From an uncultured Eubacteriales bacterium (lineage in GTDB: Bacteria; Bacillota; Clostridia; Oscillospirales; Acutalibacteraceae): 39,396 nucleotides of DNA. Position numbers and translations under genes: made by a program. This document shows positions 9,451 to 39,396 of the stretch, one piece after another (position 1 is the first letter of the stretch; every line of letters begins with the position of its first letter). Under the pieces are notes generated by a model that ran no database searches, was not told where the DNA came from, and saw only the letters and a program-made list of their open reading frames with translations. The stretch is from NCBI GenBank assembly GCA_900314355.1, contig OMUY01000069.1, positions 1 to 39,396 of the forward strand, written 5' to 3'.

Positions 9451-12400
9451 ATGCCGAGCAAACTGCAAATCACAAGCACCGGACTGCAGCAGGAGAAAAT
9501 CGAAGCCGCAAAAACGGATGAGAACTGGATGGCGTTCTTGCGTACTGCGGCAAATAACTACAAGTATTCATTCAACGATCAAATGCTTATCTATGCGCAG
9601 AAACCGAATGCGACAGCCTGCGCGGAGATTGGTTTCTGGAACGACCGTATGAACCGCTGGGTCAATAAGGGCGCAAAGGGTATCGCGCTGATCGACACAG
9701 GCGGAACGCAGCCAAAACTGCGCTATGTTTTCGACGTCAGCGATACGAACAGCCGATACGGTTATGAAATCAGATTATGGCAAGCAGAGGAGCGTTTTCA
9801 GCCGGATATTGTTACCGCGTTGGAGGACAGCTTCGGTGAGCTTGCCGACAAATCCGATTTCCGGCAGGCACTGGTGTCTGTCACAAAGAATCTTGTCGAG
9901 GATAACAAGCAGGATTATTTATCCCTGTTATCTGAACGGGAAAACGTCGGGTATCTGGAGGGAATGGACGCAAACGGATTAGACGCGATCTTCTCCGCCG
10001 CGCTGCAGCGTTCCGTGCAATATATGATGATGGCGCGCTGCGGAATCGAATCGAAGGAATACTTTTACGATGAACATTTCCATCCGATCTTTTTCTTCAA
10101 CACGACCGATACGATTGACGTCATCGGAACCGCTGTCAGCGATATTGCTGAAATGGGACTGCGAGAGATCGAAAGCACCGTCAGAAATCTGCAAATTGCG
10201 GAGAGAAAATCCAATCGCACATTTGCAAGAACGGAAGAAAACCGTTATGATGAAGCTGTAATTAAAACAAACACCGAAAGGAGCAATGAAAATGGAACTG
10301 ACGTACACGAAGCAGGGCGACTATTTGATCCCGAACTTGACATTGCCGCAGAGGGAGTACCCGACGCTGGGCAAATACGGGATGCTGCGGAAGACATTCC
10401 TCAGGCAGAACCGCAAGGCGGTGTTCACCATGATGCAAACGCAGGACACGCTGTGGGAGCATCTGAGCGAGGTGGACAAGTCGGCGAACGAGATGATGGA
10501 ATCTCTGACGGTGCAGATGGCGAAGGAACAGGGCGTGACCGAGGAGCTGAAAGCGGCGGATCAGATGCAGTGGGTGGGGATGATGAACAACATCCGGAAC
10601 GCAGCGGAGGAGATCGTGTTGAAAGAACTCGTCTACAGTTAAGCGGACATGACTTTAACGCTCCGAGCGCCATTCCGTATTACAGCGAAGCCCACGAAAA
10701 ATCGGAACTGCTCAGAAGCTGCCTTGCGTTAAAAGATCACAGATTAGAAATTGCCACGTTTTTTGCGGAAAACACAGACCGCAGAGAGCGTGGCGATTTT
10801 GTTAAGAGCTATTTTGATAACACCTATGTAGAGCACATTCTTGACAGCGGACAGCGTGTCGGCTACAGGGCGTGGGAAGATGTATTGAATCTTTGGCGCG
10901 GCGCATATCTGACCCGTGAAAAGGAAGTGTTTATGCACTGGTGGCAGGTCGCAGACGATATTTACGGGCAGATCCTGATGGAACAATGGTTGACTCCGAG
11001 CGAGCGGCCGATGCTCAGCATAGAGAGCCGAACCGCTCTTTTCGGTGAAGCGACGCTTGTACCGGAACAGCCCTTTGCGATCCCGCAGGCAGCGATTGAC
11101 TATGTGCTTTGCGGCGGCAGTCATGTGAGCGATGGAAAAATGCGTATTTACACGCAATTCCTGAATCAGGAAGGAACAGATAAAAATGTTGCGTTCTTGA
11201 AAAATGAATATGGAACCGGAGGGCGTTCCGACGCTGTTCCCGGCACGGATTTATGGGAGGAGCATGACGGCAAAGGGCTTTCAATCAGAACGCTTCACGA
11301 TGACAGACCGAATTCCGTAAAGGTATTGATTCCGTGGAATAAGGTCGCAAAGCGTATTGACGAGCTGATTAGAGTGGACCGATACCTAAATCGAGCAGAA
11401 AAGGATAGATACCCCATTTTTGTCCGTGAACAGGAAGCAAGGGAAAAAAGAAGTGGGATTGTCAGAGAATTTAATGATATTATTCGTGATTTCAATGATT
11501 TTGAAACACAAATAGGAAATTCAGAGTCAAGATTGAACTTCTTCACGCTTAGTCAGTATTCAGATCGTTTCTACTTTGGAGAAAAGGTTCTCAAGGGATA
11601 TGGACAAAATCCGGATGTTTTTGTGTTGCCCGCTATGCGAGAAGCAATGCAGAAGATCATATCGGAAAACACGCATCTGACCGAACGCTGTGAGTCGGTA
11701 TTGGCATCTCTGAACAGCGACATTGCAAGACCATTTGAACCGACCTATGACGAGCTGAACCCACCGCCCGAACCGGAGAAACAGTTGGTCCTTTCTTTGG
11801 GCGATACTGTATATATCGGTTCGCAGGAATATGAGCTGCTGTCCTACGGGGACGAAACCGTTGAATTGTTTGATCCGTCGTTCCCGCTGATGCACAAGGA
11901 ATTCTCGCGCGAAGAATTTGACGCAAGGGTCAAAGAGAATCCGATGAATGATAAATATCTCCGCATTGTTGATGCAGAGCCGGAGCAAACACAAACCGAC
12001 TCGCCGAAAGACGATCACATCTACCTTGACAATGACCGAGAGGTTGTCACCTGGATCTACTATAACCCGGACGCGGATGCCGGCGGTCAGCTCGTTGCCA
12101 ACTCTATGGATTACGATACCTTCCGTGAGTTTTATACCGAATACAGCGATAATATGCAGGCATTTATTGACGGTATCAACGAAGCTGCCGATCAATGGCT
12201 CGGCGACATCAACACGTATGACTATAATTTATACAGAGCAGACTACGACGCCGAGCCGCAGTATGTGGATATGACGCCGGAGAACGCGGCGAAGATCGCA
12301 GCGGATATTGAGAACTACCGCTATGCGCAGGAGCAGGCAAAGCCGAAAACGCTTTTTGATGAATACAATGCCATTAAGGAACAGAATTCCGACAGCCTTG

Positions 12401-15400
12401 TGCTGTTTCAGGTCGGTGATTTCTTTGAAGCCTACGGAGCAGATGCTCGGAGAATGGCTTCCGAACTTGATCTTATTCTGACTTCGCGTTTAATGCCGGA
12501 CGGTGAGCGCATCCCTATGTGCGGCGTCCCGAAGCATATTCTCGGCACCTATACCGATATGCTGCTGGATCGCGGTATCGATATTGTTGTTTCTTCCTTT
12601 GAGGATGGTGTGCGCAATACCGTTCCCATTGTTTCAACAAACAAAGAAGATCCGGTTCAGTCGCACCCGGTCGGCGCGATTGAATACCTTGCCAATGACG
12701 GGCAAGTACGGGAGCGCATTGAGTACACAAGTGAGTATCAATTTAAGAAAGACGTACAAGAAGAAAACAGTTTCGGTGTTCCGATGGTGTTGGTGTTCTA
12801 TGAGGATAAGGAAGGTCACACGATTGATAAGAGCTTCCTTGCGGCTCTTGACCCGCCGCCGCAGGGTATCAGAACCGAACTTTCTCCCACGCTGATTGTC
12901 GAGGGAGAACAGAAGGTTTTGACTGCCGTGCAGGAGTATTACGGCGACGCATTCCCCGATGAAAACTTCACGATTGAAGAGGAACGGGATAAAAGCAGAA
13001 TTGCCCTTGCCTACACGACAACAGGTGACGGAGAGCATGACATACAAGTCAATCTTGATCTTGTTGATAAGCGCATTGAGTATCTTGTAGATAACGAAGA
13101 AATCCATGCGGAGGAGTTTGTTTCCTATGACGGGATCGTTGAATATCTTGGTAATACGAGCTTTGAGGCTTTGATCGGTGAAGCGGAATCTGCTTTTGCA
13201 GAACGCAATGCTCCCGAGCTTTTACCGCCGCAGTCGCTTCGTCCGCTGAAAGAAGCGCCGCACGTTCTCTACCCGGAGATTGCGTCAAATTACAGAACGA
13301 ATTATCGTATTGACAATGATAATATCGGCGTCGGGACTCCGCTTGAACGGTTCCACCATAATATTCAGGCAATCCAATTGTTGAAGAAACTGGAAGATGA
13401 ACATCGGCTTGCGGATACTAACGAACAGCGCATCCTTGCCGATTACGTCGGCTGGGGCGGGTTGTCGGAGTTCTTTAAAGAAGAGAATCCGCACTATTTG
13501 GAACTCAAGGTCGCACTGACCGAAGAAGAATATGCTGCGGCACGGGAATCCTCTCTGACAGCATTTTACACGCCTCCCGTAGTTATCAGGGCAATGTATC
13601 AGGCGTTTGAGAATATGGGCTTCCGAAGCGGCAATATTCTGGAACCGTCGTGCGGCATCGGCAACTTTATGGGACTTCTGCCTGATTCGATGCAGAATTC
13701 ACAGATGTACGGTGTAGAGCTTGACCCGATTACGGGCAGAATAGCGCAGCAGTTGTATCAGAAAAACAGCATAGCCGTGCAGGGCTTTGAAACAACCAAT
13801 GTGCCGGACAGCTTTTTTGACGCCGCTGTGGGCAACGTCCCCTTCGGACAGATCAAGGTCAACGACCCGCGATATAACAAGCACAATTTCTTCATTCACG
13901 ACTATTTCTTTGCGCGAACGCTTGATAAAGTCAGACCGGGCGGCGTGATTGCCTTTATCACTTCATCCGGCACGATGGACAAAGAAAATCCAAAAGTGCG
14001 TAAATATATCGCGCAGCGGGCGGATTTGCTCGGCGCGATCCGTTTGCCAAATACGACCTTCAAAGCTGCGGCAGGTACGGAGGTAACCGCCGATATTCTG
14101 TTTTTGCAGAAGCGTGACCGCCTGATTGACATTGAGCCTGAGTGGGTACACCTCGGAAAAGACGAGAACGGGATCGCAATAAACCAATACTTCATCGACA
14201 ATCCCGAAATGATTATGGGCGAGATGCAGATGGTCAGCGGTCCTTACGGTCCGACGCCGACCTGCGTGTCTTATGAGGATCAGCCGCTAAACGATTTGCT
14301 GGCGGCAGCGATCCAAAACATTCACGGTGAGGTTACGGAAATTGAGTTCGCCGATGTTGACAATGCGGAAGAAGACCGTTCCATTCCCGCAGATCCCGAA
14401 GTCAGAAATTTCAGTTACACGATTGTTGACGGAGAAATCTACTATCGGGAAAACAGCCGTATGAATCCGGTGGAGGTATCAGACACCGCGAAAAACCGGA
14501 TCAAAGGACTGATCGGCATACGGGAGAGCGTTCGCAGGCTGATTGACTTGCAAACCGAAGATTACCCGGATGTCGAAATACGTTTGGAACAAGAAAAGCT
14601 CAATACTTTGTACGATGATTTCAGCAAAAAGTATGGGCTGATCAATTCCCGCGGCAATAACACGGCGTTCTCGTCCGACAGTTCCTATTGTCTGTTGGCG
14701 TCGCTTGAGGTGCTGGACGATGACGGAAATTTTGTCCGCAAAGCAGATATGTTCTCAAAGCGTACCATTAAGCAAAAGGTCATTGTGCAATCTGTTGACA
14801 CTGCTGCCGAAGCACTTGCCTTGTCACTTGCCGAAAAGGCAATCGTAGATATGGAGTATATGACGCAGCTTACTGGCAAACCGGAAGAAGAACTGTATAC
14901 AGAGCTGCGCGGCGTGATTTTCCTGAATCCATTGCACACACACGAGAATGACGGACAGGCAAAATATCTGCCTGCAGATGAATATCTTTCCGGCAACGTC
15001 AGAGAAAAGCTTGCGTTGGCGAAGCGAACGGCGGAATTGTACCCTGACGACTATGCCCCGAATGTGGAGGCTCTGACGGCGGTTCAGCCGAAAGACCTGT
15101 CCGCGTCGGAAATATCCGTGCGTCTCGGCGCAACATGGCTTCCGCCTGAGATCGTCGAACAGTTTATGTTCGAGCTTCTGCAAACGCCCCGGTATATGAC
15201 TTGGAATATCCACGTTCACTTTTCCAAGTATACCGGCGAATGGCAGGTGGAAGGTAAATCCAATGACAAGCGCAATGTTCGTGCATCGAACACCTACGGC
15301 ACCGACAGGATCAACGCTTATCGAATTATCGAAGAAACGCTGAATCTAAAGGATGTGCGGATTTTTGACTACCCGGAGGACGCGGAGGGTAAAAAGCATC

Positions 15401-18078
15401 CCGTTCTCAATAAAAAAGAAACCGCTATCGCACAGGGGAAACAAGAGCTGATCAAGGAAGCGTTTCAGGAGTGGATCTGGAAGGACCCGCAGAGAAGAGA
15501 TAGGCTCTGCCGGATGTATAACGACAGGTTCAATTCCGTCAGACCGAGAACCTATGACGGCTCTCATCTGAACTTTGTCGGGATGAACCCTGAAATTACG
15601 CTACGTAAGCACCAGCTTGATGGCGTTGCTCACGCGATCTACGGTGGGAATGAGCTGTTGGCGCATGAGGTCGGCGCGGGTAAAACCTTCACAATGGTGG
15701 CTATCGCGCAGGAAAGCAAACGACTCGGTTTGTGCCAAAAATCGTTGTTTGTTGTTCCCAACCATCTGATTTCACAATGGGCGACGGAATATTTGCAGCT
15801 TTACCCTGCGGCGAATATCCTTGTGGCGACGAAAAAAGACTTTGAAACGAAAAACCGCAAGAAGTTCTGCGCCCGTATCGCCACCGGCGACTATGACGCG
15901 ATCATCATCGGGCATAGCCAGTTTGAGAAAATTCCGATGTCCATCGAGCGTCAGCAGAGAATTCTACAACAGCAGCTTGATGAGATTATGTCCGGCATCA
16001 TCGAAATGAAGCAGAACAGAGGCGACAGGTTTTCCGTTAAGCAGTTGGAGCAGCAGAAAAAGAGCGTGGAGCTCAAGCTGCAAAAGCTGAACGATACCTC
16101 TCGAAAAGACGACCTTGTGACCTTTGAGGAGCTTGGCGTTGACAGGCTCTTTGTGGATGAAGCGCACTATTACAAAAATCTTGCTGCGTTTACGAAAATG
16201 CGCAACGTCGGCGGCATATCACAAACGGAAGCGATGAAATCAAGTGATCTGTATATGAAGTGCAGGTATCTTGATGAGCTGACAGGAGGTAAAGGTGTTG
16301 TATTCGCCACCGGTACACCGATTTCAAATAGCATGGTCGAAATGTATACCATGCAAAAATATCTGCAATACGGGACGCTCAACCAAAATGAACTATTGCA
16401 CTTTGATAGCTGGGCTTCCACCTTCGGTCAGACCGTGACGGCAATCGAGCTTTCCCCCGAAGGATCGGGCTACCGTGCAAAAACAAGGTTTGCCAAGTTC
16501 TTCAATCTGCCGGAGCTTATGACGATGTTCCGCGAAGTCGCGGATATTCAGACGGCGGATATGCTGCATCTGCCTGTGCCTAAAGCCAATTTTCACAATG
16601 TGGTTTTGAAACCCTCCGAACAACAGAAAGAAATGGTCGCGTCGCTCGGCGAGCGGGCAGAACGGGTGCGCAGCAAGATGGTTTCCTCCGAGGAGGACAA
16701 TATGCTGCTCATTACCAATGATGGGCGTAAACTGGCGCTCGATCAGCGGCTTATGAATGAGATGTTGCCGGACAGTGAAACCGGCAAGGTCGCTGCTTGC
16801 GCAAAGAACGTGTTTGAGATTTGGCAGAAGACAATGCCCGCAGCCTCCACGCAAATGGTGTTCTGTGATCTGTCTACGCCCCATGGGGATGGAAATTTCA
16901 ATGTATACGATGATTTGAAAAAGAAGCTTGTCGCTATGGGTGTTCCGGAAGATCAGATCGCATATATTCACGACGCAAATACGGAAGTGCAAAAGAAGGA
17001 GCTCTTCGGCAAGGTCAGAAACGGCATCGTGCGTGTACTCTTGGGCTCAACCTTTAAGATGGGTGCCGGAACCAATGTGCAGAAGCGGTTGATCGCGCTG
17101 CATCACCTTGATACCCCGTGGCGACCGGCAGACCTTGCCCAGCGCAACGGGCGCATTATCCGACAGGGCAACGACAATCCGGAGGTTGAGATCTTTACCT
17201 ATGTTACGGAAAACACCTTCGACAGCTATCTGTATCAGTTGGTGGAAAACAAGCAAAAATTCATCGGTCAGATCATGACAAGCAAATCGCCTGTGCGTTC
17301 AGCGGAAGACGTTGATGAGCAGGCGCTTTCTTATGCCGAAATCAAAATGCTTGCCACCGGCAATCCGTATATCAAGGAGAAGATGGATCTGGATATTGAA
17401 GTTTCAAAACTCAAGCTGTTGAAAGCAAACCACCTGAGTCAGAAGTATTCATTGGAGGACAAAATTCTCAAAGAATTCCCAATGCGTATTTCTTCCTTGG
17501 AGCAAAGGATCGTTGGTGTCAAAGCAGATATTGCCCGCGCTCAAGCGCAAACACATCCAAATGCAGACGGCTTTTCTCCGATGGAGATCAAAGGTACTGT
17601 TTATACGGACAAGAAAGCTGCAGGTACAGAACTGTTGGCGGTCTGCAAGTCCATGACGACGCCCGATCCGATCCCCCTCGGCAACTATCGCGGCTTTGAG
17701 TTGTCTTTGCTGTTTGACAGTATGTCCCGGCAGTATGTTATTACGATGAAGCATGAGTGTACGCACAACGTACCTCTCGGTACTGATATTTTCGGTAACA
17801 TTCAGCGCCTTGATAACGCCATTACCGGGCTGCCGGACAAGCTGAAAGCAGCCGAGGAGCAACTGACCGAAACAAAGAAACAGTTGGAAACAGCAAAAAT
17901 GGATGTGGAGCTGCCGTTCCCACACGAGGAAGAATTGACAAAAAAGTCAGCCCGTCTTGCAGAGCTGGATTCAATGCTGAGCCTTGATAAGCCGGAGAAT
18001 GAGATCGTGGACGGTGAACGGGACGGCGATACACCGGAAAAGCCCGATAGGGTAAGAGAAACCCCGCAGAGCCGATGA
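9451..18078 (+). CDS. Giant polyvalent protein: ArdC-like, MutS-I-like, N6 adenine methylase and SF2 helicase domains
   Basis: A 2875-residue protein starting after SD GTGAGGTGAGA. Residues about 20-75 resemble the ArdC-type N-terminal module (M-L-I-Y-A-Q-x-P-x-A-T, K-G-A-K-G-I). About 285-400 is a Gly/Asp/Glu/Arg-rich linker that overlaps tnpV in another frame. Residues 968-1052 resemble MutS domain I (F-Q-V-G-D-F-F-E-A-Y-G). The methylase has L-E-P-S-C-G-I-G-N-F (1397-1406) and G-N-V-P-F (1461-1465), an [ND]PPF variant. The helicase has G-A-G-K-T (2075-2079), D-E-A-H (2236-2239), T-G-T-P and Q-R-N-G-R-I-I-R-Q-G (2564-2573). The last 200 residues are coiled coil. Such LtrC-like proteins are hallmarks of these ICEs; they probably modify or remodel transferred DNA and counter restriction. 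Confidence 0.9.
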   Translation: MPSKLQITSTGLQQEKIEAAKTDENWMAFLRTAANNYKYSFNDQMLIYAQKPNATACAEIGFWNDRMNRWVNKGAKGIALIDTGGTQPKLRYVFDVSDTNSRYGYEIRLWQAEERFQPDIVTALEDSFGELADKSDFRQALVSVTKNLVEDNKQDYLSLLSERENVGYLEGMDANGLDAIFSAALQRSVQYMMMARCGIESKEYFYDEHFHPIFFFNTTDTIDVIGTAVSDIAEMGLREIESTVRNLQIAERKSNRTFARTEENRYDEAVIKTNTERSNENGTDVHEAGRLFDPELDIAAEGVPDAGQIRDAAEDIPQAEPQGGVHHDANAGHAVGASERGGQVGERDDGISDGADGEGTGRDRGAESGGSDAVGGDDEQHPERSGGDRVERTRLQLSGHDFNAPSAIPYYSEAHEKSELLRSCLALKDHRLEIATFFAENTDRRERGDFVKSYFDNTYVEHILDSGQRVGYRAWEDVLNLWRGAYLTREKEVFMHWWQVADDIYGQILMEQWLTPSERPMLSIESRTALFGEATLVPEQPFAIPQAAIDYVLCGGSHVSDGKMRIYTQFLNQEGTDKNVAFLKNEYGTGGRSDAVPGTDLWEEHDGKGLSIRTLHDDRPNSVKVLIPWNKVAKRIDELIRVDRYLNRAEKDRYPIFVREQEAREKRSGIVREFNDIIRDFNDFETQIGNSESRLNFFTLSQYSDRFYFGEKVLKGYGQNPDVFVLPAMREAMQKIISENTHLTERCESVLASLNSDIARPFEPTYDELNPPPEPEKQLVLSLGDTVYIGSQEYELLSYGDETVELFDPSFPLMHKEFSREEFDARVKENPMNDKYLRIVDAEPEQTQTDSPKDDHIYLDNDREVVTWIYYNPDADAGGQLVANSMDYDTFREFYTEYSDNMQAFIDGINEAADQWLGDINTYDYNLYRADYDAEPQYVDMTPENAAKIAADIENYRYAQEQAKPKTLFDEYNAIKEQNSDSLVLFQVGDFFEAYGADARRMASELDLILTSRLMPDGERIPMCGVPKHILGTYTDMLLDRGIDIVVSSFEDGVRNTVPIVSTNKEDPVQSHPVGAIEYLANDGQVRERIEYTSEYQFKKDVQEENSFGVPMVLVFYEDKEGHTIDKSFLAALDPPPQGIRTELSPTLIVEGEQKVLTAVQEYYGDAFPDENFTIEEERDKSRIALAYTTTGDGEHDIQVNLDLVDKRIEYLVDNEEIHAEEFVSYDGIVEYLGNTSFEALIGEAESAFAERNAPELLPPQSLRPLKEAPHVLYPEIASNYRTNYRIDNDNIGVGTPLERFHHNIQAIQLLKKLEDEHRLADTNEQRILADYVGWGGLSEFFKEENPHYLELKVALTEEEYAAARESSLTAFYTPPVVIRAMYQAFENMGFRSGNILEPSCGIGNFMGLLPDSMQNSQMYGVELDPITGRIAQQLYQKNSIAVQGFETTNVPDSFFDAAVGNVPFGQIKVNDPRYNKHNFFIHDYFFARTLDKVRPGGVIAFITSSGTMDKENPKVRKYIAQRADLLGAIRLPNTTFKAAAGTEVTADILFLQKRDRLIDIEPEWVHLGKDENGIAINQYFIDNPEMIMGEMQMVSGPYGPTPTCVSYEDQPLNDLLAAAIQNIHGEVTEIEFADVDNAEEDRSIPADPEVRNFSYTIVDGEIYYRENSRMNPVEVSDTAKNRIKGLIGIRESVRRLIDLQTEDYPDVEIRLEQEKLNTLYDDFSKKYGLINSRGNNTAFSSDSSYCLLASLEVLDDDGNFVRKADMFSKRTIKQKVIVQSVDTAAEALALSLAEKAIVDMEYMTQLTGKPEEELYTELRGVIFLNPLHTHENDGQAKYLPADEYLSGNVREKLALAKRTAELYPDDYAPNVEALTAVQPKDLSASEISVRLGATWLPPEIVEQFMFELLQTPRYMTWNIHVHFSKYTGEWQVEGKSNDKRNVRASNTYGTDRINAYRIIEETLNLKDVRIFDYPEDAEGKKHPVLNKKETAIAQGKQELIKEAFQEWIWKDPQRRDRLCRMYNDRFNSVRPRTYDGSHLNFVGMNPEITLRKHQLDGVAHAIYGGNELLAHEVGAGKTFTMVAIAQESKRLGLCQKSLFVVPNHLISQWATEYLQLYPAANILVATKKDFETKNRKKFCARIATGDYDAIIIGHSQFEKIPMSIERQQRILQQQLDEIMSGIIEMKQNRGDRFSVKQLEQQKKSVELKLQKLNDTSRKDDLVTFEELGVDRLFVDEAHYYKNLAAFTKMRNVGGISQTEAMKSSDLYMKCRYLDELTGGKGVVFATGTPISNSMVEMYTMQKYLQYGTLNQNELLHFDSWASTFGQTVTAIELSPEGSGYRAKTRFAKFFNLPELMTMFREVADIQTADMLHLPVPKANFHNVVLKPSEQQKEMVASLGERAERVRSKMVSSEEDNMLLITNDGRKLALDQRLMNEMLPDSETGKVAACAKNVFEIWQKTMPAASTQMVFCDLSTPHGDGNFNVYDDLKKKLVAMGVPEDQIAYIHDANTEVQKKELFGKVRNGIVRVLLGSTFKMGAGTNVQKRLIALHHLDTPWRPADLAQRNGRIIRQGNDNPEVEIFTYVTENTFDSYLYQLVENKQKFIGQIMTSKSPVRSAEDVDEQALSYAEIKMLATGNPYIKEKMDLDIEVSKLKLLKANHLSQKYSLEDKILKEFPMRISSLEQRIVGVKADIARAQAQTHPNADGFSPMEIKGTVYTDKKAAGTELLAVCKSMTTPDPIPLGNYRGFELSLLFDSMSRQYVITMKHECTHNVPLGTDIFGNIQRLDNAITGLPDKLKAAEEQLTETKKQLETAKMDVELPFPHEEELTKKSARLAELDSMLSLDKPENEIVDGERDGDTPEKPDRVRETPQSR
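10292..10642 (+). CDS. tnpV: TnpV-family protein nested out of frame in the giant gene
   Basis: A 116-residue ORF in the +1 frame relative to the giant gene, with its own strong SD (GAAAGGAG at 10276-10283) eight bases before ATG 10292; ATG 10286 is too close to that SD. The product carries the whole TnpV pattern: G-D-Y-L-I-P-N-L-T-L-P, a G-K-Y-G-M-L-R-K segment, G-V-T-E-E-L-K-A-A-D-Q-M-Q-W-V and a closing M-N-N-I-R-N-A-A-E-E-I-V-L-K-E-L-V-Y. TnpV was named from the Tn4451 family of clostridial transposons; its role is not settled. The giant frame stays open across it, so the same DNA appears to encode two proteins. The local sequence is more G+C-rich than its flanks. Confidence 0.78.
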   Translation: MELTYTKQGDYLIPNLTLPQREYPTLGKYGMLRKTFLRQNRKAVFTMMQTQDTLWEHLSEVDKSANEMMESLTVQMAKEQGVTEELKAADQMQWVGMMNNIRNAAEEIVLKELVYS

Positions 18079-31880: not shown

Positions 31881-32248
31881 AGATTAACCGTGAAATCCGA
31901 AATTACAGTGAAGCGGTTTATTTTGGGCTGAATCTCCGGCAGTTCATCTTTTCGATACTTGCCTGCGGTGTTGCCGTGGGCTTGTATTTTTTACTGAAAC
32001 CGTTCTTCGGTATTGAGACGCTTTCGTGGGTGTGCATTCTCGGCGCTCTTCCGTTTGCAGCCATCGGTTTTTTCAAGTACCACGGTATGACTGCGGAGAA
32101 GGCGCTGATCGCGTATCTGAAATCGGAAGTGTTGACGCCGAAGCAGTTAAAATTCAAATCATCAAACTATTATGATCTTATGACAGCAGAAAGGAGCAAT
32201 GAGCATGTTCGATCTCATCGGCACAATAAAAAAGAAAAGCGGCATTGA
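31871..32248 (+). CDS. PrgI-family protein (VirB3-like)
   Basis: A 125-residue protein starting at GTG 31871 inside the previous gene (SD GGAGGGTGA). It has the PrgI hallmarks: E-I-K-I-N-R-E-I-R-N-Y at the N-terminus, L-N-L-R-Q-F-I-F-S, two membrane helices (about 27-45 and 53-70), then F-K-Y-H-G-M-T-A-E-K. PrgI proteins are small inner channel parts that partner VirB4. Its 3' end overlaps the VirB4 gene by 44 bases, confirming coupling. Confidence 0.85.
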   Translation: MEIKINREIRNYSEAVYFGLNLRQFIFSILACGVAVGLYFLLKPFFGIETLSWVCILGALPFAAIGFFKYHGMTAEKALIAYLKSEVLTPKQLKFKSSNYYDLMTAERSNEHVRSHRHNKKEKRH

Positions 32249-34541
32249 CGGCGATATGCTGACCGTGCCGCAGTCTGTACAGAGTGTGCTGCAAATCAAG
32301 GCGGTTTATGACGACGGAATCTTCCTTGTCGGGCACGAGCTTTACAGCAAAATGTTTCAGTTTACGGACATCAATTACGCCGTATCAAGCCGAAAGGACA
32401 AAGAGGATGAATTTCTGAAATACAGTGAGATTCTCAATTCACTGGAAAACGGTGTGTCAAGCCAGATTACCATTGTCAACCGCAGGATCAAAAACAATGA
32501 GCTTCAGGACATCATTATGCCCGATCAAGAGGACGACGGCAACAATGAATACCGGCGCGAAATCAACGGGATGCTTATGAAGCTCGCAAACAGCGCAAAT
32601 GCTATCGTACAGGATAAATATATCACCGTAACCATCCAAAAGAAAACGCTTGAGGACGCAAGAAAGCATTTTCTCCGCGTGGGAACCGATCTCACGGCGC
32701 ATTTTCAGAGGCTCGGTTCCAAGATAACGGATTTAGATCTGACCGAGCGCCTGCGTGTGATTCATGATTTCTGCCGTCCCGGAGAAGAAGCGGATTACCA
32801 CTTCGATCTGCGGGACACGATGCGAAAGGGACAGGATTTCCGCGACTATATTTCTCCCGACGGTTATGAGTTCAAATCGGACTATTTCAAGATCGGCGGT
32901 AAGTTTGCCCGCGTACTGTTCATCCGGGATTATCCCTCCTTTGTTAAGGATTCCGTGATTTGGGAGCTGACGGACAGCAACCGGAATATGATCTTCAACT
33001 ATGACATTATTCCCGTATCTACGGAGGAGGCGCAGAAGTTCGGCGAACGGCAGGCTCTCGGAATAGAAACTAATATAGCCAATTATCAGCGTAAACAGAA
33101 TTCCAACAACAATTACACTTCCATTATTCCGTATGATATGGAGCAGCAGCGAAAAGAAATCAGAGAGTTTCTTGATGATATTACTTCCCGCGATCAGAAG
33201 ATGTTCAAGTGTGTAATGACGTTCATGCACACCGCCGATTCTAAGGAGCAGCTTGATGCTGATACCGATGCGATCACTGCTACCGGCAGAAAGCATATGT
33301 GCCAAATCGGTGTGCTCAAATTTCAGCAGATGGACGGATTCAACGCAACGCTCCCCTTGGGAATAAACAAGATTCAGGCAAGGCGCACCCTTACAACGGA
33401 AAGCCTTGCTGTTTTTATGCCTTTCAAGGTACAGGAGATTCAGCATAAAAACGGCATCTTTCAGGGCGTGAACGTCATTTCAAAAAATCTCATCTTCGTC
33501 AACCGAAAGGAGCTGCTCAACGGCAATTGCTTTATTCTCGGTGTGTCCGGTTCCGGTAAATCCTTCACGGCAAAGGAAGAGCTTGTGAACCTCCTGCTGA
33601 CCCGTGACGCCGACGTCATTATCATTGACCCCGAACGCGAATACAAGCCGCTTGTGGACGCATTGGGCGGACAGGTGATCCAGTTGTCCGCAACGTCAAA
33701 AAATCATATCAATGCGCTGGACATCAACAAAGACTACGCGGACGGCGCGAATCCCATTCCGTCCAAGACGGAATTTGTTCTTTCGATCTTTGAGCAGATC
33801 GCGGGTAAGGATAACGTAGGCGCGTTTGAAAAGTCCATTATCGACCGCTGCCTGACTACCATCTATTCCCCGTATATCAAGAAAAAGTACAAGGGCAAAC
33901 CTCCCACGCTCATAGACCTTGTGGAAAATCTCAAAGTGCAGCCGGAGCCGGAGGCGCAGGAGCTGGCAGTTCAGATTGAACTTTTTACCACCGGTTCGCA
34001 CAATACTTTTGCCCAGCAGACCAACGTGAATATCAAGAATCGGTTTGTCTGCTTTGATATTCTTGATCTCGGCTCGCAGTTGATGCCCATCGGTATGTTG
34101 ACGGTCCTTGACAGTATTCTCAACCGTATCACCGCCAACCGCGCATCGGGGAAAGAAACGTATATCTTCATCGACGAAATTTACCTGTTGTTCCAGCATG
34201 AGTATTCGGCAAATTTCCTGTTTACGCTGTGGAAACGAATCAGAAAGTATAACGGCTTCTGCACCGGAATCACGCAGAACGTAGACGATCTGCTTCAGAG
34301 CCATACTGCGAGAACGATGCTCGCCAACAGTGAATTTATTATTATGCTCAATCAGGGTTCGACCGACCGTGAGGAGCTTGCAAAGCTCTTGCAGATTTCG
34401 GACGATCAGATGAAGCACATCACCAATGTGGACAGCGGGCACGGACTGATTAAGGTCGGCTCCGATCTTGTACCGTTTGAACGAAAATTCCCGAAAGACA
34501 CAAGGCTGTATAAACTCATGACGACAAAAATCGGTGAATAA
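32205..34541 (+). CDS. virB4: VirB4-family conjugation ATPase
   Basis: A 778-residue ATPase. ATG 32205 is best placed for SD AAAGGAG; ATG 32199 would be only two bases from it. Walker A is G-V-S-G-S-G-K-S (446-453) and Walker B F-I-D-E (about 655-658). The N-terminal domain (Y-S-K-M-F-Q-F-T-D-I-N-Y) matches the ICE VirB4 family. VirB4 powers assembly of the channel and substrate transfer at the inner side of the membrane. Length and motifs are normal, and a terminator follows. Confidence 0.92.
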   Translation: MFDLIGTIKKKSGIDGDMLTVPQSVQSVLQIKAVYDDGIFLVGHELYSKMFQFTDINYAVSSRKDKEDEFLKYSEILNSLENGVSSQITIVNRRIKNNELQDIIMPDQEDDGNNEYRREINGMLMKLANSANAIVQDKYITVTIQKKTLEDARKHFLRVGTDLTAHFQRLGSKITDLDLTERLRVIHDFCRPGEEADYHFDLRDTMRKGQDFRDYISPDGYEFKSDYFKIGGKFARVLFIRDYPSFVKDSVIWELTDSNRNMIFNYDIIPVSTEEAQKFGERQALGIETNIANYQRKQNSNNNYTSIIPYDMEQQRKEIREFLDDITSRDQKMFKCVMTFMHTADSKEQLDADTDAITATGRKHMCQIGVLKFQQMDGFNATLPLGINKIQARRTLTTESLAVFMPFKVQEIQHKNGIFQGVNVISKNLIFVNRKELLNGNCFILGVSGSGKSFTAKEELVNLLLTRDADVIIIDPEREYKPLVDALGGQVIQLSATSKNHINALDINKDYADGANPIPSKTEFVLSIFEQIAGKDNVGAFEKSIIDRCLTTIYSPYIKKKYKGKPPTLIDLVENLKVQPEPEAQELAVQIELFTTGSHNTFAQQTNVNIKNRFVCFDILDLGSQLMPIGMLTVLDSILNRITANRASGKETYIFIDEIYLLFQHEYSANFLFTLWKRIRKYNGFCTGITQNVDDLLQSHTARTMLANSEFIIMLNQGSTDREELAKLLQISDDQMKHITNVDSGHGLIKVGSDLVPFERKFPKDTRLYKLMTTKIGE

Positions 34542-34609: not shown

Positions 34610-36802
34610 GTGGATAAAAAACCGAAAACGAAAGAGGTTGTACGGACTGTCAAAGAACACGCTGCGTCGTCGGCAAAGGAAAAGGCGGCGCAGGTCGGTG
34701 TAAAGACGAAAGAAGCAGTTGCCGGCAAGGTTGAAGATCAATTTAAGCCGCAGCAGAATAAGAAAGGCGAACAGTCTGCTGAAAGCTACGCTTCCGATCA
34801 GGTTACGGAAAAGGCAGAACAGCTTGCCGACGAATCCGTACACCTAACTGGCAAGGCTGTCAAATCGACCGTTTACACAGTCCGGGAAAAGAGAAAAGAA
34901 AAGAAAAACGCCGAGGCGGAAGAAACACCGGAAGCTGACTTGTCCGATCCTTCCGAAAACACTTCTGCGACAGATGATAATCCGAAACCATCCGAAAACA
35001 AACCAAAGGAATCATCAAAGACAAATGAACCGCCGCCAAGAACAAGTGAGTCCACGGAGGTGGGATCTGCGTCATCGAAGAATAACCCCCAAAGCAGCGA
35101 ACCGAAAAAAGGTGTAGAACACACCTCTGACGTTCAGAAACCATCAGAAACAAAAGCGTCCTCGGATAAGAAAAAGCCGAGCCGAACTGATGCTGTAGAT
35201 CATTCTGCTGCCGGAGCACCATCCGAGACAACGGAGATGAAAGTTCCCGATACGCCGCAAGCCAATGGGCAGAAGCCACCTGCACAGTCCGGGCAGAAAA
35301 CCATTTGCTCCAAGACACCGGAACAGGCGGCTATTAAGGAACGCACCCTCGCCAAGCCAAAAAACGCTTTTGGTTCAGACGTGCCGGAGCGGGAGACAAA
35401 GCCTCGGACAAGGCAAAAATCCTTGCCGAAACAGCGGGGACAACAGACGATAAAACATGCAGGTGCAAGGGCAAATGAAATCCGCACGGCTTCAGCAGCT
35501 TCTCATAAGGTAAAGGAAGTTCAGCACGGCACTGCACAGACAATAAAGACGGCGGACAAAGCCGTTAAAAATGCGGAAAGAACCGCCAAGGCAACAAAAA
35601 AAGCCGCTGAAACAACGGCAAAAGCAGCAAAGCGTTCCGAGGAAGCCGCAAGACGTACCGCAAAAGCCGCGATTCAGGCGACGAAGGTTGCCGTAAAAGC
35701 CGCGGTTGAAGGCATCAAAGCCGCTATTGCTGCGGGTAAAGAGCTGATTGCAGCCATCGGCGCAGGCGGTCCCGTTGTGCTTGTGATTATAATCGTGATT
35801 TGCTTAATTTCGGCTATCGGCGGCACTTGCTTCGGGATATTCCTTTCCAATGATAAGACGACCGGTACACAAATCACAATGACCGAAGCGATCATACAGC
35901 TTACCTCCGAGCACTATAACCAACTGACGAATACAAAATCGAATTACACCTACGATATGATGGAGGTTGACAGCGCTTCGGGCGGGATCTCTATTGATTG
36001 GCGGGACGTGCTTGCTGTGTATGCCGTCAAAACTACCACCTCCACAGAGAACGCGTATGAGGTAGTTACAATGGACGATGTGAAAATGGATCTGCTCCGG
36101 CAAGTGATCGACGATATGAATCAGATCTCCTATGCGGTGGAGCAGCGGCAGGTAACAGAAACCGTAACGGAAAAGGATTCCAACGGGAATACCGTGACCA
36201 CAACGAAAACGGTAACCAAAAATATTTTGAAGGTAACGGTTACAAGGCTGACAGCAGAGCAGATTATTAAGCAGTATCACTTTAACGAGGAGCAGAAAAA
36301 ACAGCTTAATGAGTTGATGGGCTCTGATTACGATGACTTATGGACAGAACTGATCGGAACTGCCGGCGCAACCGGCGATGTGCTGATGTCCGAAAGCACC
36401 TATATCCCGACCGATATTTTCGCGTGGCCTCTCCAGCAAAATGGGAGTATTTCATCTCCGTTCGGGTATCGTACAGATCCGATCTCCGGGGAACACAAGC
36501 TGCACGGCGGCACAGATATTGCAGCACCGACCGGGACGCCGATCCTCGCTTCGGCAGACGGTGTGGTGATCGCAGCGACCTGGCATAACTCTTACGGCTA
36601 TTATGTTAAGATTCAGCACAACGATACGTTTGCGACGCTCTATGGGCATTGTTCCGCGCTTCACGTCACAGCAGGGCAGCAAGTAAAGCAAGGACAAATC
36701 ATAGCCGACGTCGGGCAGACCGGCTACGCGACAGGTCCGCACGTCCATTTTGAAGTGTATGTCAACGGTACCCGCGTAAACGCGATGCAATACTTTAGAT
36801 GA
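34610..36802 (+). CDS. Membrane-anchored M23 peptidase of the mating channel (CD1108-like)
   Basis: A 730-residue protein starting at GTG 34610 after a G-rich SD (G8 at 34593-34600, then TGA). Residues 1-380 are Lys/Glu/Ser/Pro-rich, with Ala/Lys heptad-like repeats near 300-375. One membrane helix spans about 387-411. The extracytoplasmic part ends in an M23/LytM domain: S-P-F-G-Y-R near residue 617, H-G-G-T-D (H632, D636) and H-V-H-F-E (H711, H713), the full zinc-ligand and catalytic set. It should cut peptidoglycan to let the channel through, as VirB1-like hydrolases do. The long cytoplasmic N-terminus is unusual and may bind other channel parts. Confidence 0.87.
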   Translation: MDKKPKTKEVVRTVKEHAASSAKEKAAQVGVKTKEAVAGKVEDQFKPQQNKKGEQSAESYASDQVTEKAEQLADESVHLTGKAVKSTVYTVREKRKEKKNAEAEETPEADLSDPSENTSATDDNPKPSENKPKESSKTNEPPPRTSESTEVGSASSKNNPQSSEPKKGVEHTSDVQKPSETKASSDKKKPSRTDAVDHSAAGAPSETTEMKVPDTPQANGQKPPAQSGQKTICSKTPEQAAIKERTLAKPKNAFGSDVPERETKPRTRQKSLPKQRGQQTIKHAGARANEIRTASAASHKVKEVQHGTAQTIKTADKAVKNAERTAKATKKAAETTAKAAKRSEEAARRTAKAAIQATKVAVKAAVEGIKAAIAAGKELIAAIGAGGPVVLVIIIVICLISAIGGTCFGIFLSNDKTTGTQITMTEAIIQLTSEHYNQLTNTKSNYTYDMMEVDSASGGISIDWRDVLAVYAVKTTTSTENAYEVVTMDDVKMDLLRQVIDDMNQISYAVEQRQVTETVTEKDSNGNTVTTTKTVTKNILKVTVTRLTAEQIIKQYHFNEEQKKQLNELMGSDYDDLWTELIGTAGATGDVLMSESTYIPTDIFAWPLQQNGSISSPFGYRTDPISGEHKLHGGTDIAAPTGTPILASADGVVIAATWHNSYGYYVKIQHNDTFATLYGHCSALHVTAGQQVKQGQIIADVGQTGYATGPHVHFEVYVNGTRVNAMQYFR

Positions 36803-36807
36803 AAAAC

Positions 36808-36850
36808 GACCGGGATTTGCAGTCTTTGTGCAAGTCTCGGTCAATTTTTT
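36808..36850 (+). terminator. Strong rho-independent terminator after the M23 gene
   Basis: A 14-bp stem (36808-36821 with 36829-36842, two G-T pairs) followed by AATTTTTT. It closes the mating operon. A 10-bp palindrome TGTATATACA lies further on, before the recombinase. Confidence 0.82.
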
Positions 36851-36942
36851 GCAAATGAGCGATTATCCGCAATTCCGTTTTCGGATTTTAAGACGAGGTG
36901 TTAAACTCAATGTATATACATAAAATTTCGGAGGTTTTTTAT

Positions 36943-37797
36943 ATGGAAAGAATTTTAACAGCGGAAGTCATTGCTGCGTTTAACCATCATCTTGTTGAAG
37001 AAGAAAGAAGTCAGGCTACGATTGAAAAATACAATCGTGACATAAAGAGGCTTGTGGTATTTTTAAATGGCGGAGCGGTCACAAAGGAAACTATGATCGA
37101 ATACAAGCAGCATCTTTTGGAGCAGGGCTACGCAGAACGCAGCGTGAACTCTATGCTTGCGGCGGTCAACAGTATGTTTGAGTTCCTTGAGTGGTATGAG
37201 TGCAGGGTGAAAGCAATCAAGCTCGCGCCGGAGATCTATCGCCCCGAGGAAAAGGAGCTAACACAGAAAGAATACGAGCGCCTTGTGAATACTGCGATGG
37301 AGCAGGGCAAGGAAAAACTTGCCGTCATCCTGCAAACGATCTGCGGAACGGGTATCCGTATTAGTGAGCTGCAATTTGTTACCGTGGAAGCCGTTAAACG
37401 AGGGGAAGCGAAAGTCCACTGCAAAGGAAAGTCGAGGAAGGTTTTTATCGTTGACGAATTGAAGAAACTGCTTTTGGGCTATATCAAAAAACACCACATT
37501 AAATCCGGTACGATCTTTCTTTCAAAGAACGGAACTCCTATGAATCGGACAACCGTTTGGAGAGAAATGAAAAGCCTTTGCAAAGCTGCAAAAGTCAATC
37601 CGTCAAAGGTGTTTCCGCACAATCTCAGGCATTTGTTCGCAAGGGTCTTCTACAAATTAGAAAAGGATATCGCCAAGCTGGCAGATATCCTCGGTCACAG
37701 CAGTATCAACACTACTCGTATCTATATCATTTCGACCGGTCGGGAACACAAACAGAAGATGGAAAGGATGGGACTTGTACGGCCAATGCGAGTGTAA
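36943..37797 (+). CDS. XerC/D-like tyrosine recombinase next to an invertible segment
   Basis: A 284-residue tyrosine recombinase. ATG 36943 has SD CGGAGG eight bases upstream; the longer frame from 36898 lies before that SD. The N-terminal SAM-like core-binding domain is residues 1-95. Catalytic residues are present: R139 (G-T-G-I-R-I-S-E-L), K163 (C-K-G-K-S-R), H226 and R229 (H-N-L-R-H), H252 (G-H-S-S-I) and Tyr261 (T-R-I-Y). It lacks the extra N-terminal arm-binding domain of Tn916-type Int, so it is more like inversion or dimer-resolution enzymes. The last base of its stop codon is the first base of a 22-bp inverted repeat. It probably inverts that segment. Confidence 0.88.
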   Translation: MERILTAEVIAAFNHHLVEEERSQATIEKYNRDIKRLVVFLNGGAVTKETMIEYKQHLLEQGYAERSVNSMLAAVNSMFEFLEWYECRVKAIKLAPEIYRPEEKELTQKEYERLVNTAMEQGKEKLAVILQTICGTGIRISELQFVTVEAVKRGEAKVHCKGKSRKVFIVDELKKLLLGYIKKHHIKSGTIFLSKNGTPMNRTTVWREMKSLCKAAKVNPSKVFPHNLRHLFARVFYKLEKDIAKLADILGHSSINTTRIYIISTGREHKQKMERMGLVRPMRV

Positions 37798-37818
37798 ACT
37801 TAATTTCTGTTATGTTGC
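37797..37818 (+). repeat. Left 22-bp inverted repeat
   Basis: It begins AACTTAATTTCTG and ends TTGC. Its reverse complement is identical to 38044-38065. It overlaps the recombinase stop codon by one base. Confidence 0.95.
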
Positions 37819-37860
37819 AGTTTTCGTGGGAAATCTACAGAAACCCTTTTTAACTTTTAT

Positions 37861-37889
37861 AATATACCATACTTTTCTTTTTCTTGCAA
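37861..37889 (-). promoter_or_regulatory. Minus-strand promoter inside the invertible segment
   Basis: On the minus strand TTGCAA (37884-37889), a 17-base A/G-rich spacer and TATATT (37861-37866). Transcription would run left, antisense into the recombinase 3' end. Confidence 0.68.
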
Positions 37890-37962
37890 TCCTTTTTCAA
37901 AGAAAATCTGAAAGAAAACTGAAAAATTCTATTGAAACAATAAACCATTGTACGGCGTAACA

Positions 37963-38003
37963 GAGGCTTGAAAACGAAGGGATTTCATTTTCAGCCTCTT
38001 TTT
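37963..38003 (+). terminator. Rightward terminator inside the invertible segment
   Basis: GAGGCTTGAAAACGAA (37963-37978) pairs with 37984-37998 (one bulge, one mismatch), loop around GGGA, then five T. It would stop readthrough from the recombinase in this orientation. Confidence 0.7.
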
Positions 38004-38043
38004 CAAAACTTGATGGCTATATGTACCACTATGCGTATTTTTC

Positions 38044-38065
38044 GCAACATAACAGAAATTAAGTT
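38044..38065 (-). repeat. Right 22-bp inverted repeat
   Basis: It begins GCAACATAAC and ends AAGTT; exact reverse complement of 37797-37818. It ends 33 bases before the FHA start codon. Confidence 0.95.
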
Positions 38066-38098
38066 GTATTAAAAAAATGAAGGAAGTGGAGGTAGATT

Positions 38099-39226
38099 AT
38101 GACAAAATACAAAGTCAAGGTTAAAGATAACCACCTCCTCGTTATAGCAAAAATATCAAAAGATTCCGAGATAAACACATCAGAAATTGATTATTTGTCG
38201 AAAACATTTATTAGAGGGATACTAAAACCTGAAAAGAAGAACAGCAGAAAAATCAATTTTACAGGTCCTGTTTCCGTAAGTTTGCGCTCTCATCTTTCAA
38301 AGCCGATGGCTCGGTTTGAGTTTTTCCTTATCGTTACGCAGATTCTTGATGTTCCGAAACGAATTAAAAGAAAAAATCTATTTGTCAACAAAGTTGTTTA
38401 TGATTTAAATCATATTTTTATCAATGAAACGACGAAGGAATTGCAGTTTATCTATCTGCCGTTGTCTACGGTTAATTCAGGAACTGATATGCTGGAATTC
38501 CTGCGGGATTTTACTTACCAAGTGTCCCCTGCAGCAGAGAGAGATAACGACTATCTTTCGCGCTTTCTTTTCTTTTTGAATGGAATGCAGAAATATGATG
38601 TAGATCGAATAGAAAACTACATCAAAAAAGAAGACAGAGCGGCATTTGATACAATCAGAAAACAAGATGTTAGCAATAGCGGTTACATGACGGATAAACC
38701 CAAAGATTTCTACGACCATTACGAAAAAAAGAAGCAAGTAGAAAGTGATGATGAAGCAACCGGGTTGTTAGAAGATGAAGACACGGGGTTGTTAGAAGAC
38801 GAGGATACCGATTTATTAGAAGATGAAAACACCGGATTGTTGGAGGATGAAGCCACAGGCTTATTGGTTGATGAAAATGAAACGGCGCTGATTGATGACA
38901 ATGGAACCGGTTTGTTAGATGAAACGCAAGTACATTATCCATCTTTACACAGAGTGTTGACAGATGAAAATATTGTAATTAACAAACCGGTGTTTCGGAT
39001 TGGAAAAGAAAAAAGCTATGTTGATTACTTTGTTTCAAACAACAATGCGGTCAGTCGAAGCCATGCTGATATTATTACAAGAGGCCCCAGATTTTTTATT
39101 ATTGATTTGAATTCAAAAAACAGAACCTATGTCAATGATCAACCGATACCGATTCATTTTGAAATTGAGATATTTAATAATGACAGAATTAAACTGGCAA
39201 ATGAGGAATTCATTTTCTTTGTCTGA
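38099..39226 (+). CDS. FHA-domain protein with T-x-L-L repeats (DUF6382-like N-terminus)
   Basis: A 375-residue cytoplasmic protein with SD AGTGGAGG. Residues 1-190 resemble the DUF6382 domain that precedes FHA in Firmicutes signalling proteins. Residues 218-275 are an acidic tract with seven repeats of the type E-[DAN]-T-G-L-L, the sixth and seventh being degenerate. Residues about 297-375 are an FHA domain: R-I-G-K (300-303), S-R-S-H (319-322) and N-x-x-x-T-x-V-N (near 337-346). FHA domains bind phosphothreonine. The adjacent gene is a PP2C phosphatase, so this is probably part of a Ser/Thr kinase-phosphatase pathway. It follows the invertible segment directly. Confidence 0.82.
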   Translation: MTKYKVKVKDNHLLVIAKISKDSEINTSEIDYLSKTFIRGILKPEKKNSRKINFTGPVSVSLRSHLSKPMARFEFFLIVTQILDVPKRIKRKNLFVNKVVYDLNHIFINETTKELQFIYLPLSTVNSGTDMLEFLRDFTYQVSPAAERDNDYLSRFLFFLNGMQKYDVDRIENYIKKEDRAAFDTIRKQDVSNSGYMTDKPKDFYDHYEKKKQVESDDEATGLLEDEDTGLLEDEDTDLLEDENTGLLEDEATGLLVDENETALIDDNGTGLLDETQVHYPSLHRVLTDENIVINKPVFRIGKEKSYVDYFVSNNNAVSRSHADIITRGPRFFIIDLNSKNRTYVNDQPIPIHFEIEIFNNDRIKLANEEFIFFV

Positions 39227-39257: not shown

Positions 39258-39396
39258 ATGCGATTTGTTGCAACCGGTGATACGGACATTGGAATAACAA
39301 AGTCTACAAATCAGGACAGTATCTTGATTAAGCATGCATCGTTTGATGAGGGCGAAGTCTTATTGGCTATCGTATGTGACGGAATGGGCGGTTTGT
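39258..39396 (+). CDS. PP2C-family Ser/Thr phosphatase, 3'-truncated by the window edge
   Basis: The first 46 residues are visible, from ATG 39258 with SD AGGAGAG. They show PP2C motifs: T-D-I-G, S-T-N-Q-D-S, and V-C-D-G-M-G-G, with the metal-binding Asp residues. The enzyme would remove phosphate from Ser/Thr and oppose a Hanks-type kinase, likely encoded further on. It is 31 bases after the FHA gene and clearly in the same operon. Confidence 0.85.
   Translation, partial: MRFVATGDTDIGITKSTNQDSILIKHASFDEGEVLLAIVCDGMGGL

Follow-up and report, generated by a model that had tools for sequence, protein, structure and literature searches.

A probable recombinase-linked promoter switch ahead of an FHA/PP2C signalling operon in an uncultured clostridial bacterium

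Main finding

A stretch of 269 bp in the genome of an uncultured Eubacteriales bacterium most probably works as a phase-variation switch, in which a tyrosine recombinase would invert a short DNA segment and so toggle an FHA protein, a PP2C phosphatase and probably a kinase. From the sequence and its comparison with relatives, we give this reading a probability of about 0.87. The DNA analysed (hereafter, the window) is 39,396 nucleotides long and corresponds to contig 92 of a 106-contig, 2.2 Mb genome that is 86% complete. At its right end, the transfer operon of an ICE is followed by a terminator, the recombinase gene, 225 bp flanked by repeats, the FHA gene and the start of the PP2C gene. These features are as follows:

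32199-34541, plus strand: VirB4-like ATPase of the CD1110 family (962.9 bits against a cut-off of 325), a neighbour gene
34610-36802, plus strand: M23 peptidase (Peptidase_M23, 1.8e-34), last gene of the ICE transfer operon, outside the switch
36808-36842, plus strand: intrinsic terminator with a 14-pair stem and a T tail, closing the ICE transfer operon before the recombinase
36943-37797, plus strand: tyrosine recombinase, presumed invertase (Phage_integrase 2.8e-28, Phage_int_SAM_1 1.8e-10)
37797-37818, plus strand: putative left recombination site, repeat arm 1, in the same place after the recombinase as in relatives
37819-38043, no strand: putative invertible segment of 225 bp, enclosed by perfect repeats
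37861-37889, minus strand: predicted promoter TTGCAA-17-TATATT, directed away from FHA (OFF), its -10 element 42 nt from the left repeat
37962-38004, plus strand: predicted intrinsic terminator facing FHA in the captured state, a hairpin (37962-37999) followed by TTTTT
38044-38065, minus strand: putative right recombination site, repeat arm 2, complementary to arm 1
38099-39226, plus strand: DUF6382-like/FHA protein (FHA 2.1e-13; DUF6382 6.8e-4, under its cut-off)
39258-39396, plus strand: PP2C phosphatase gene, identified by its likeness to the PP2C of a related locus (L151) and truncated by the contig end after 46 codons

An earlier note, made from the letters of the sequence, had proposed an invertible promoter, linked to a tyrosine recombinase and captured in its OFF state before the FHA/PP2C genes. 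The repeats of the recombinase family, the position of the promoter and the reversed alignments between relatives support that proposal.

The recombinase and its repeats

The open frame of the recombinase begins at 36898, and its start is probably the ATG at 36943, behind a GGAGG motif. The gene is complete and ends at the left repeat, as the earlier note had read it: the frame is intact and the stop codon (37795-37797) has one base in common with the repeat. Residues R154, K178, H241, R244, H267 and Y276, which we take to be the catalytic set, are invariant in an alignment of 21 recombinases that includes the one in the window. The protein matches 10 NCBIfam families and stays under the curated cut-off in all of them.

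The two arms are complementary at 22 of 22 positions and enclose 225 nt. The perfect repeats described before thus hold up, and they exceed what chance produced: 100 first-order Markov copies of the window contained no perfect inverted repeat longer than 15 nt (span up to 700 nt). Similar repeats accompany the relatives of the recombinase; a scan of named genomes confirmed at least 582 loci, of which we studied the best 80. In 61 of these 80, an inverted repeat of 15 nt or longer starts no more than 400 nt past the point where the recombinase match ends (within 150 nt in 60 of the 61), and none of 574 random places had a comparable repeat. L168, one of the 61, has a repeat that clearly differs in kind. 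For 13 of the 19 relatives lacking a repeat the contig ends within 420 nt, and for L125 and L135 within 550 nt. The remaining ones, L106, L108, L131 (13 nt) and L176, have no qualifying repeat, and a contig end within about 550 nt is not the explanation.

The named loci and the family set together gave 79 distinct segments (82 minus 3 duplicates), whose arms follow the site ACATAAT-N4-ATTATGT. It is exact in 46 of the 79 arms and has at most two mismatches in 66, among which is the window arm, agreeing at 12 of 14 positions; 12 arms differ from the consensus at more than 4 of the 14. Inner lengths fall between 195 and 260 nt in 59 of the 79 segments, within a full range of 155-431. Extra sites occur in a few loci, L042 having an additional right site, L058 three sites and L163 doubled ones, and could permit more than two states.

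Contigs C8 and C2 of the same genome contain relatives of the DNA around the recombinase end and left repeat, as do further genomes of the taxonomic family, where the DNA search gave matches in 26 of 150 genomes (own genome counted), a few of them weak or to other parts of the query. In an order-level sample the recombinase occurs, at E-values up to 1e-70, in at least 109 of 394 genomes, and the named relatives are mostly titled Clostridia, Ruminococcaceae, Oscillospiraceae or Lachnospiraceae. The region 37600-38300 had no match in plasmid or phage collections, and a scan of viral contigs with the recombinase confirmed no relative.

A predicted promoter and terminator inside the segment

The minus strand between the repeats carries TTGCAA-17-TATATT, with the -35 at 37889-37884 and the -10 at 37866-37861. 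This promoter-like site, which the earlier note had singled out, is a modest match (9 of 12 positions) in the position typical of the family. That position emerged from a first pass, in which any promoter was scored on both strands of the 79 segments, and the -10 elements clustered about 30-50 nt from the repeat with a spacing of 17 nt. When promoters spaced by 17 nt, with a -10 25-52 nt from the repeat and at least 6 bits, are counted, 66 of the 79 segments have one (window included). Shuffled segments reach this in 11% of cases, and two alternative positions give 15% and 6%. The enrichment is a little inflated, since the position was picked from the very segments in which it was then counted. 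By direction, 19 of the 79 segments are called ON (promoter toward the target), 47 OFF (away) and 13 unclear, and the window is called OFF by 8.8 against -0.4 bits. An inverton is marked by an intact site-specific recombinase nearby, inverted repeats around a short segment and an orientation-dependent promoter in it; the window contains the first two, and sequence and comparison point to the third. A plus-strand site, TCTACA-18-TATAAT (37834-37863, 10 of 12 positions), faces FHA in the captured state with the terminator in between; the earlier note had overlooked it.

That rightward intrinsic terminator, also part of the earlier description, was recovered by folding. Its hairpin (37962-37999) has -15.8 kcal/mol and a z of -2.4, with 5 of 200 shuffles equalling it; a terminator scan set to loops of 3-8 does not list it. 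Relatives often have a hairpin at a similar place in the segment, and by a simple hairpin score 43 of the 79 segments have one facing away from the side of the promoter and 38 have one running in the direction of the promoter, the ON/OFF labels of this comparison coming from the first-pass promoter scoring. Because both directions are about equally frequent, the family hairpin may be bidirectional. The idea that flipping turns the terminator away thus applies to the window copy and less clearly to the family.

Evidence for inversion

One argument for inversion comes from comparing segments with each other, a test free of the choice of promoter position. Pairs of segments with the same call align forward (27 of 27) and pairs with opposite calls align reversed (16 of 16), in a set that omits the 13 unclear segments and alignments shorter than 60 nt and whose pairs are not independent. 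In one such pair, L054 and L113, the reversed alignment covers the 240 inner bases completely at 77%, and the recombinase lies on the same side in both. Homologous segments are therefore reversed relative to the recombinase, and inversion has occurred during the history of the family, in which both orientations are seen across loci. Sister copies in the genome of the window also differ, that on C2 being ON and that on C8 OFF.

The ends of contigs offer a second line of evidence. Among the matches listed, 13 of 73 have a contig end no more than 400 nt past the recombinase and 3 of 72 have one equally close before it (p 0.015; partial matches G000:C8, G335:C13, G267:C68, G419:C15 and G265:C36 omitted). 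Among the best 80 relatives, a sample that partly overlaps the former, contigs end within 420 nt after it in 13 of 80 and before it in 1 of 80 (p 0.001). Contig breaks just after the recombinase fit mixed orientations within populations.

The window segment has one orientation alone in its assembled genome, and the opposite one was not found there. It could therefore be that the sites work while the segment is locked in this bacterium, for instance by a silent recombinase, leaving a relic switch with FHA driven from elsewhere or never expressed. Some relatives have decayed: in L051 the recombinase gene is split between frames, and L053, where no repeats were seen, retains part of the gene. We nevertheless consider a locked segment unlikely, since the recombinase frame of the window is complete, with its presumed catalytic residues kept, and its repeats are perfect, which decay would erode. 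A working switch, in which the recombinase of the window presumably inverts the segment next to it, remains our preferred reading.

The FHA/PP2C cargo and the targets of related switches

As the earlier note stated, an FHA/PP2C operon starts 33 nt past the right repeat, with the ATG of FHA at 38099. The FHA gene is full-length, and the PP2C piece is 63% identical over 46 aa to the PP2C of L151; being very short (46 codons), it had no match in Pfam. The linker of the FHA protein contains repeated threonine motifs of the TGLLEDE type, which are possible phosphorylation sites. L151, from a Ruminococcus MAG of goat caecum, has a related recombinase and 30-nt repeats, followed by trypsin-FHA, PP2C and Ser/Thr kinase genes. 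Its segment is OFF by fixed-position scoring, and its strands are nearly alike in first-pass scoring. Because L151 has the same switch before FHA, PP2C and Ser/Thr kinase genes, a kinase probably lies beyond the contig end in our genome.

A kinase after the PP2C of the window is also likely because the order FHA-PP2C-kinase recurs in loci that have no switch. Operons of this type (L090, L092, L095, L099, L241-L246, L248-L250 and L252) have the gene order of L151 and resemble the window as far as its order is visible. The three genes stand in a row in 10 of the 12 loci fetched from the order (L241-L252), the exceptions being L247, with its nearest FHA match 4 kb away, and L251, with further PP2C copies in between. 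No perfect inverted repeat of 16 nt or longer, at arm distances of 100-600 nt, was found in L241-L252 or in the fetched stretches of L090, L092, L095 and L099. The PP2C and kinase of this module type elsewhere in the same genome (C47) form a second operon and are not the continuation of the window. When the 26 PP2C matches of at least 195 bits in the order-level sample (C47 included) were compared by eye with the recombinase matches, none shared a contig among the matches listed, so the combination of switch and PP2C is rare.

In many related bacteria a flip switch of this type stands before other genes, which often encode surface proteins; a signalling cargo is unusual. In 53 of 61 loci, an open frame of 70 aa or more runs rightward from a start no more than 900 nt past the right repeat, and FHA occurs in 2 of 60 downstream proteins (window plus 53 named loci), those of the window and L151. 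The downstream genes include dockerin, cohesin, leucine-rich, collagen, SpaA pilin and camelysin-like proteins, together with SPFH, GGDEF, EAL, peptide synthetase and TetR proteins. An SPFH protein is a recurrent first target (L040, L043, L047, L102, L134, L137 and L156; for L047 by its sequence end alone), mostly with zinc ribbons, and in L040 it is followed by a TIR/TPR/L7-L12 protein. In L051 (G133:C3), whose recombinase frame is broken, the segment precedes a peptide synthetase at least 2908 aa long and is ON, as if locked in that state.

The genome of the window holds four more recombinases of the family, on C2 (L037), C8 (L036), C35 (L224) and C93 (L039). The ON copy on C2 precedes a surface protein of at least 2359 aa, the OFF copy on C8 precedes dockerin proteins, and that on C35 precedes genes that include EAL and SpaA proteins; no repeats were found after the C93 gene.

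Defence models had no match to the FHA protein of the window; to the L151 operon they gave generic kinase/protease matches and one weak PP2C match. A link with type VII secretion was dropped as the main explanation: EssC lies near FHA-PP2C-STK genes in L090 and L092 and in 0 of 12 loci in L241-L252, and the EssC genes of our genome, on C3 and C57, are unconnected to the window. In L090, L092 and L100, which have no switch, FHA stands with PP2C and/or a kinase near EssC, YukD or WXG100 genes.

The ICE neighbourhood

The transfer operon upstream comprises a relaxase (24188; Relaxase match 3.1e-37), a VirD4 of the CD1115 type (28403; 523.5 bits against a cut-off of 250), VirB4 (32199) and the M23 peptidase (34610), which presumably belong to a CTn4/Tn1549-like ICE. 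The earlier note had the switch carried with this ICE, a claim that the comparison does not establish. The operon is closed by its own terminator (36808-36842; -24.1 kcal/mol, z -5.4 by folding against shuffles), and GC content drops from 47.2% (1-36800) to 44.2% in the recombinase and 36.4% from FHA onwards. GC is a weak discriminator of the ICE boundary, since nine other contig stretches of the same genome span 38-48%. The recombinase is absent from eight loci with a related M23 gene (L212-L219), some of them shortened by contig ends and with VirB4 beside M23 in L213 and L217 only, and also from the longer stretches L220-L223. The contig stops at 39396, ahead of any ICE boundary.

Two further genes of the window were recorded. 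A protein of 2875 aa (9451-18078), upstream of the relaxase, has MutS_I, Eco57I-type methylase and SNF2 helicase matches, and helicase and methylase matches in the defence models as well. A surface protein at the left end (3-3530) has nine matches to Listeria-Bacteroides repeats.

Tyrosine recombinases act as ICE integrases, and a transfer operon lies directly upstream, so repeats and recombinase could conceivably serve the integration or excision of a mobile element, the promoter being incidental. We regard this as very improbable, as the sites are inverted rather than direct, and the family shows a common inner length (195-260 nt in 59 of 79), a positioned promoter and unrelated downstream genes. 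Least probable of all is an ordinary fixed promoter/terminator region whose repeats bind a protein as a dyad. In its favour, a single arm already forms a dyad (ACATAAT-N4-ATTATGT) in most relatives; against it, homologous segments are found both ways round with respect to the recombinase, and contigs break at the segment.

Relation to known switches

In Clostridioides difficile, RecV acts on several distant sites. Published accounts of the RecV flagellar switch, CwpV, CmrRST and pdcB/pdcC likewise describe inversion or phase variation upstream of an operon, and the CmrRST and c-di-GMP phosphodiesterase switches also control signalling. Unlike RecV, the window has a site pair adjoining its own recombinase, and its target is FHA/PP2C phospho-signalling. 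In Bacteroidales, Mpi inverts promoters whose type and repeats differ from those of the window. Promoter inversion is thus shared with that group, whereas the phylum differs. Invertible promoters of antibiotic-resistance genes in Bacteroidales are described in PMC8748976, in which ICEs are named 4 times.

A closer parallel is found in a read-mapping survey of 2025, according to whose main text 32 of the 33 members of inverton group 139 come from Clostridia (PMC11892184). Nearly all of these invertons have a tyrosine-type recombinase close by, invertase group 35, with which the group is significantly associated, and their reads change orientation between culture passages (PMC11892184). By the two sets of coordinates printed there, the arms measure 26 and 14 nt and the inner segments 205 and 227 nt, which resembles the family of the window. 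The linkage is defined within 5 kb, whereas the recombinase of the window overlaps the left repeat by one base. The family is likely that of group 139 and invertase 35, as judged by host class, recombinase type and lengths rather than by repeat motif. The words FHA, forkhead, kinase and phosphatase do not occur in the main text of that survey, and no FHA/PP2C operon under an invertible promoter was found in the literature at the level of titles and abstract openings, with subscription journals thinly covered.

The earlier note knew of no described switch of this composition. This is borne out for the cargo, which we did not find in print within that scope; the class itself has been described, and L151 is a second case of the composition. 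The switch class is known, and the phospho-threonine signalling cargo is the new part.

A model for the switch and its meaning

Judging from the family, the recombinase encoded just upstream would bind both inverted sites and invert the segment between them. In the captured state, the predicted promoter would face back into the recombinase gene and the terminator would guard FHA. With the promoter reversed and a terminator before FHA, the FHA-PP2C operon is therefore expected to be OFF at present, apart from any transcription from other promoters. Once inverted, the segment would have the end of its -10 element 97 nt ahead of the ATG of FHA, and its promoter would transcribe FHA, PP2C and, probably, the Ser/Thr kinase beyond the contig end. 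From their domains, the FHA protein would bind threonines phosphorylated by the kinase, perhaps those of its own linker, and PP2C would antagonise the kinase. Sub-populations would thus differ heritably in possessing the signalling unit, and the output of the switch would be heritable heterogeneity in phospho-signalling.

A broader idea, which we put forward as speculative, is that recombinase, sites, promoter and terminator form a portable cassette, near or in an ICE, which makes the kinase-phosphatase-FHA pathway heritably bistable and may spread with it from species to species, and that antisense RNA made from this promoter in the OFF state tunes switching. Such RNA against the recombinase, if true, would give switching rates that depend on the state.

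For the family as a whole, one fixed position across 79 segments, matching the reversed alignments, illustrates how the state of a promoter switch can be called from assembled genomes alone. A single recombinase family evidently precedes targets of very different kinds, including genes of reversible protein phosphorylation, and Ser/Thr signalling in gut Clostridia would become a candidate for bet-hedging.
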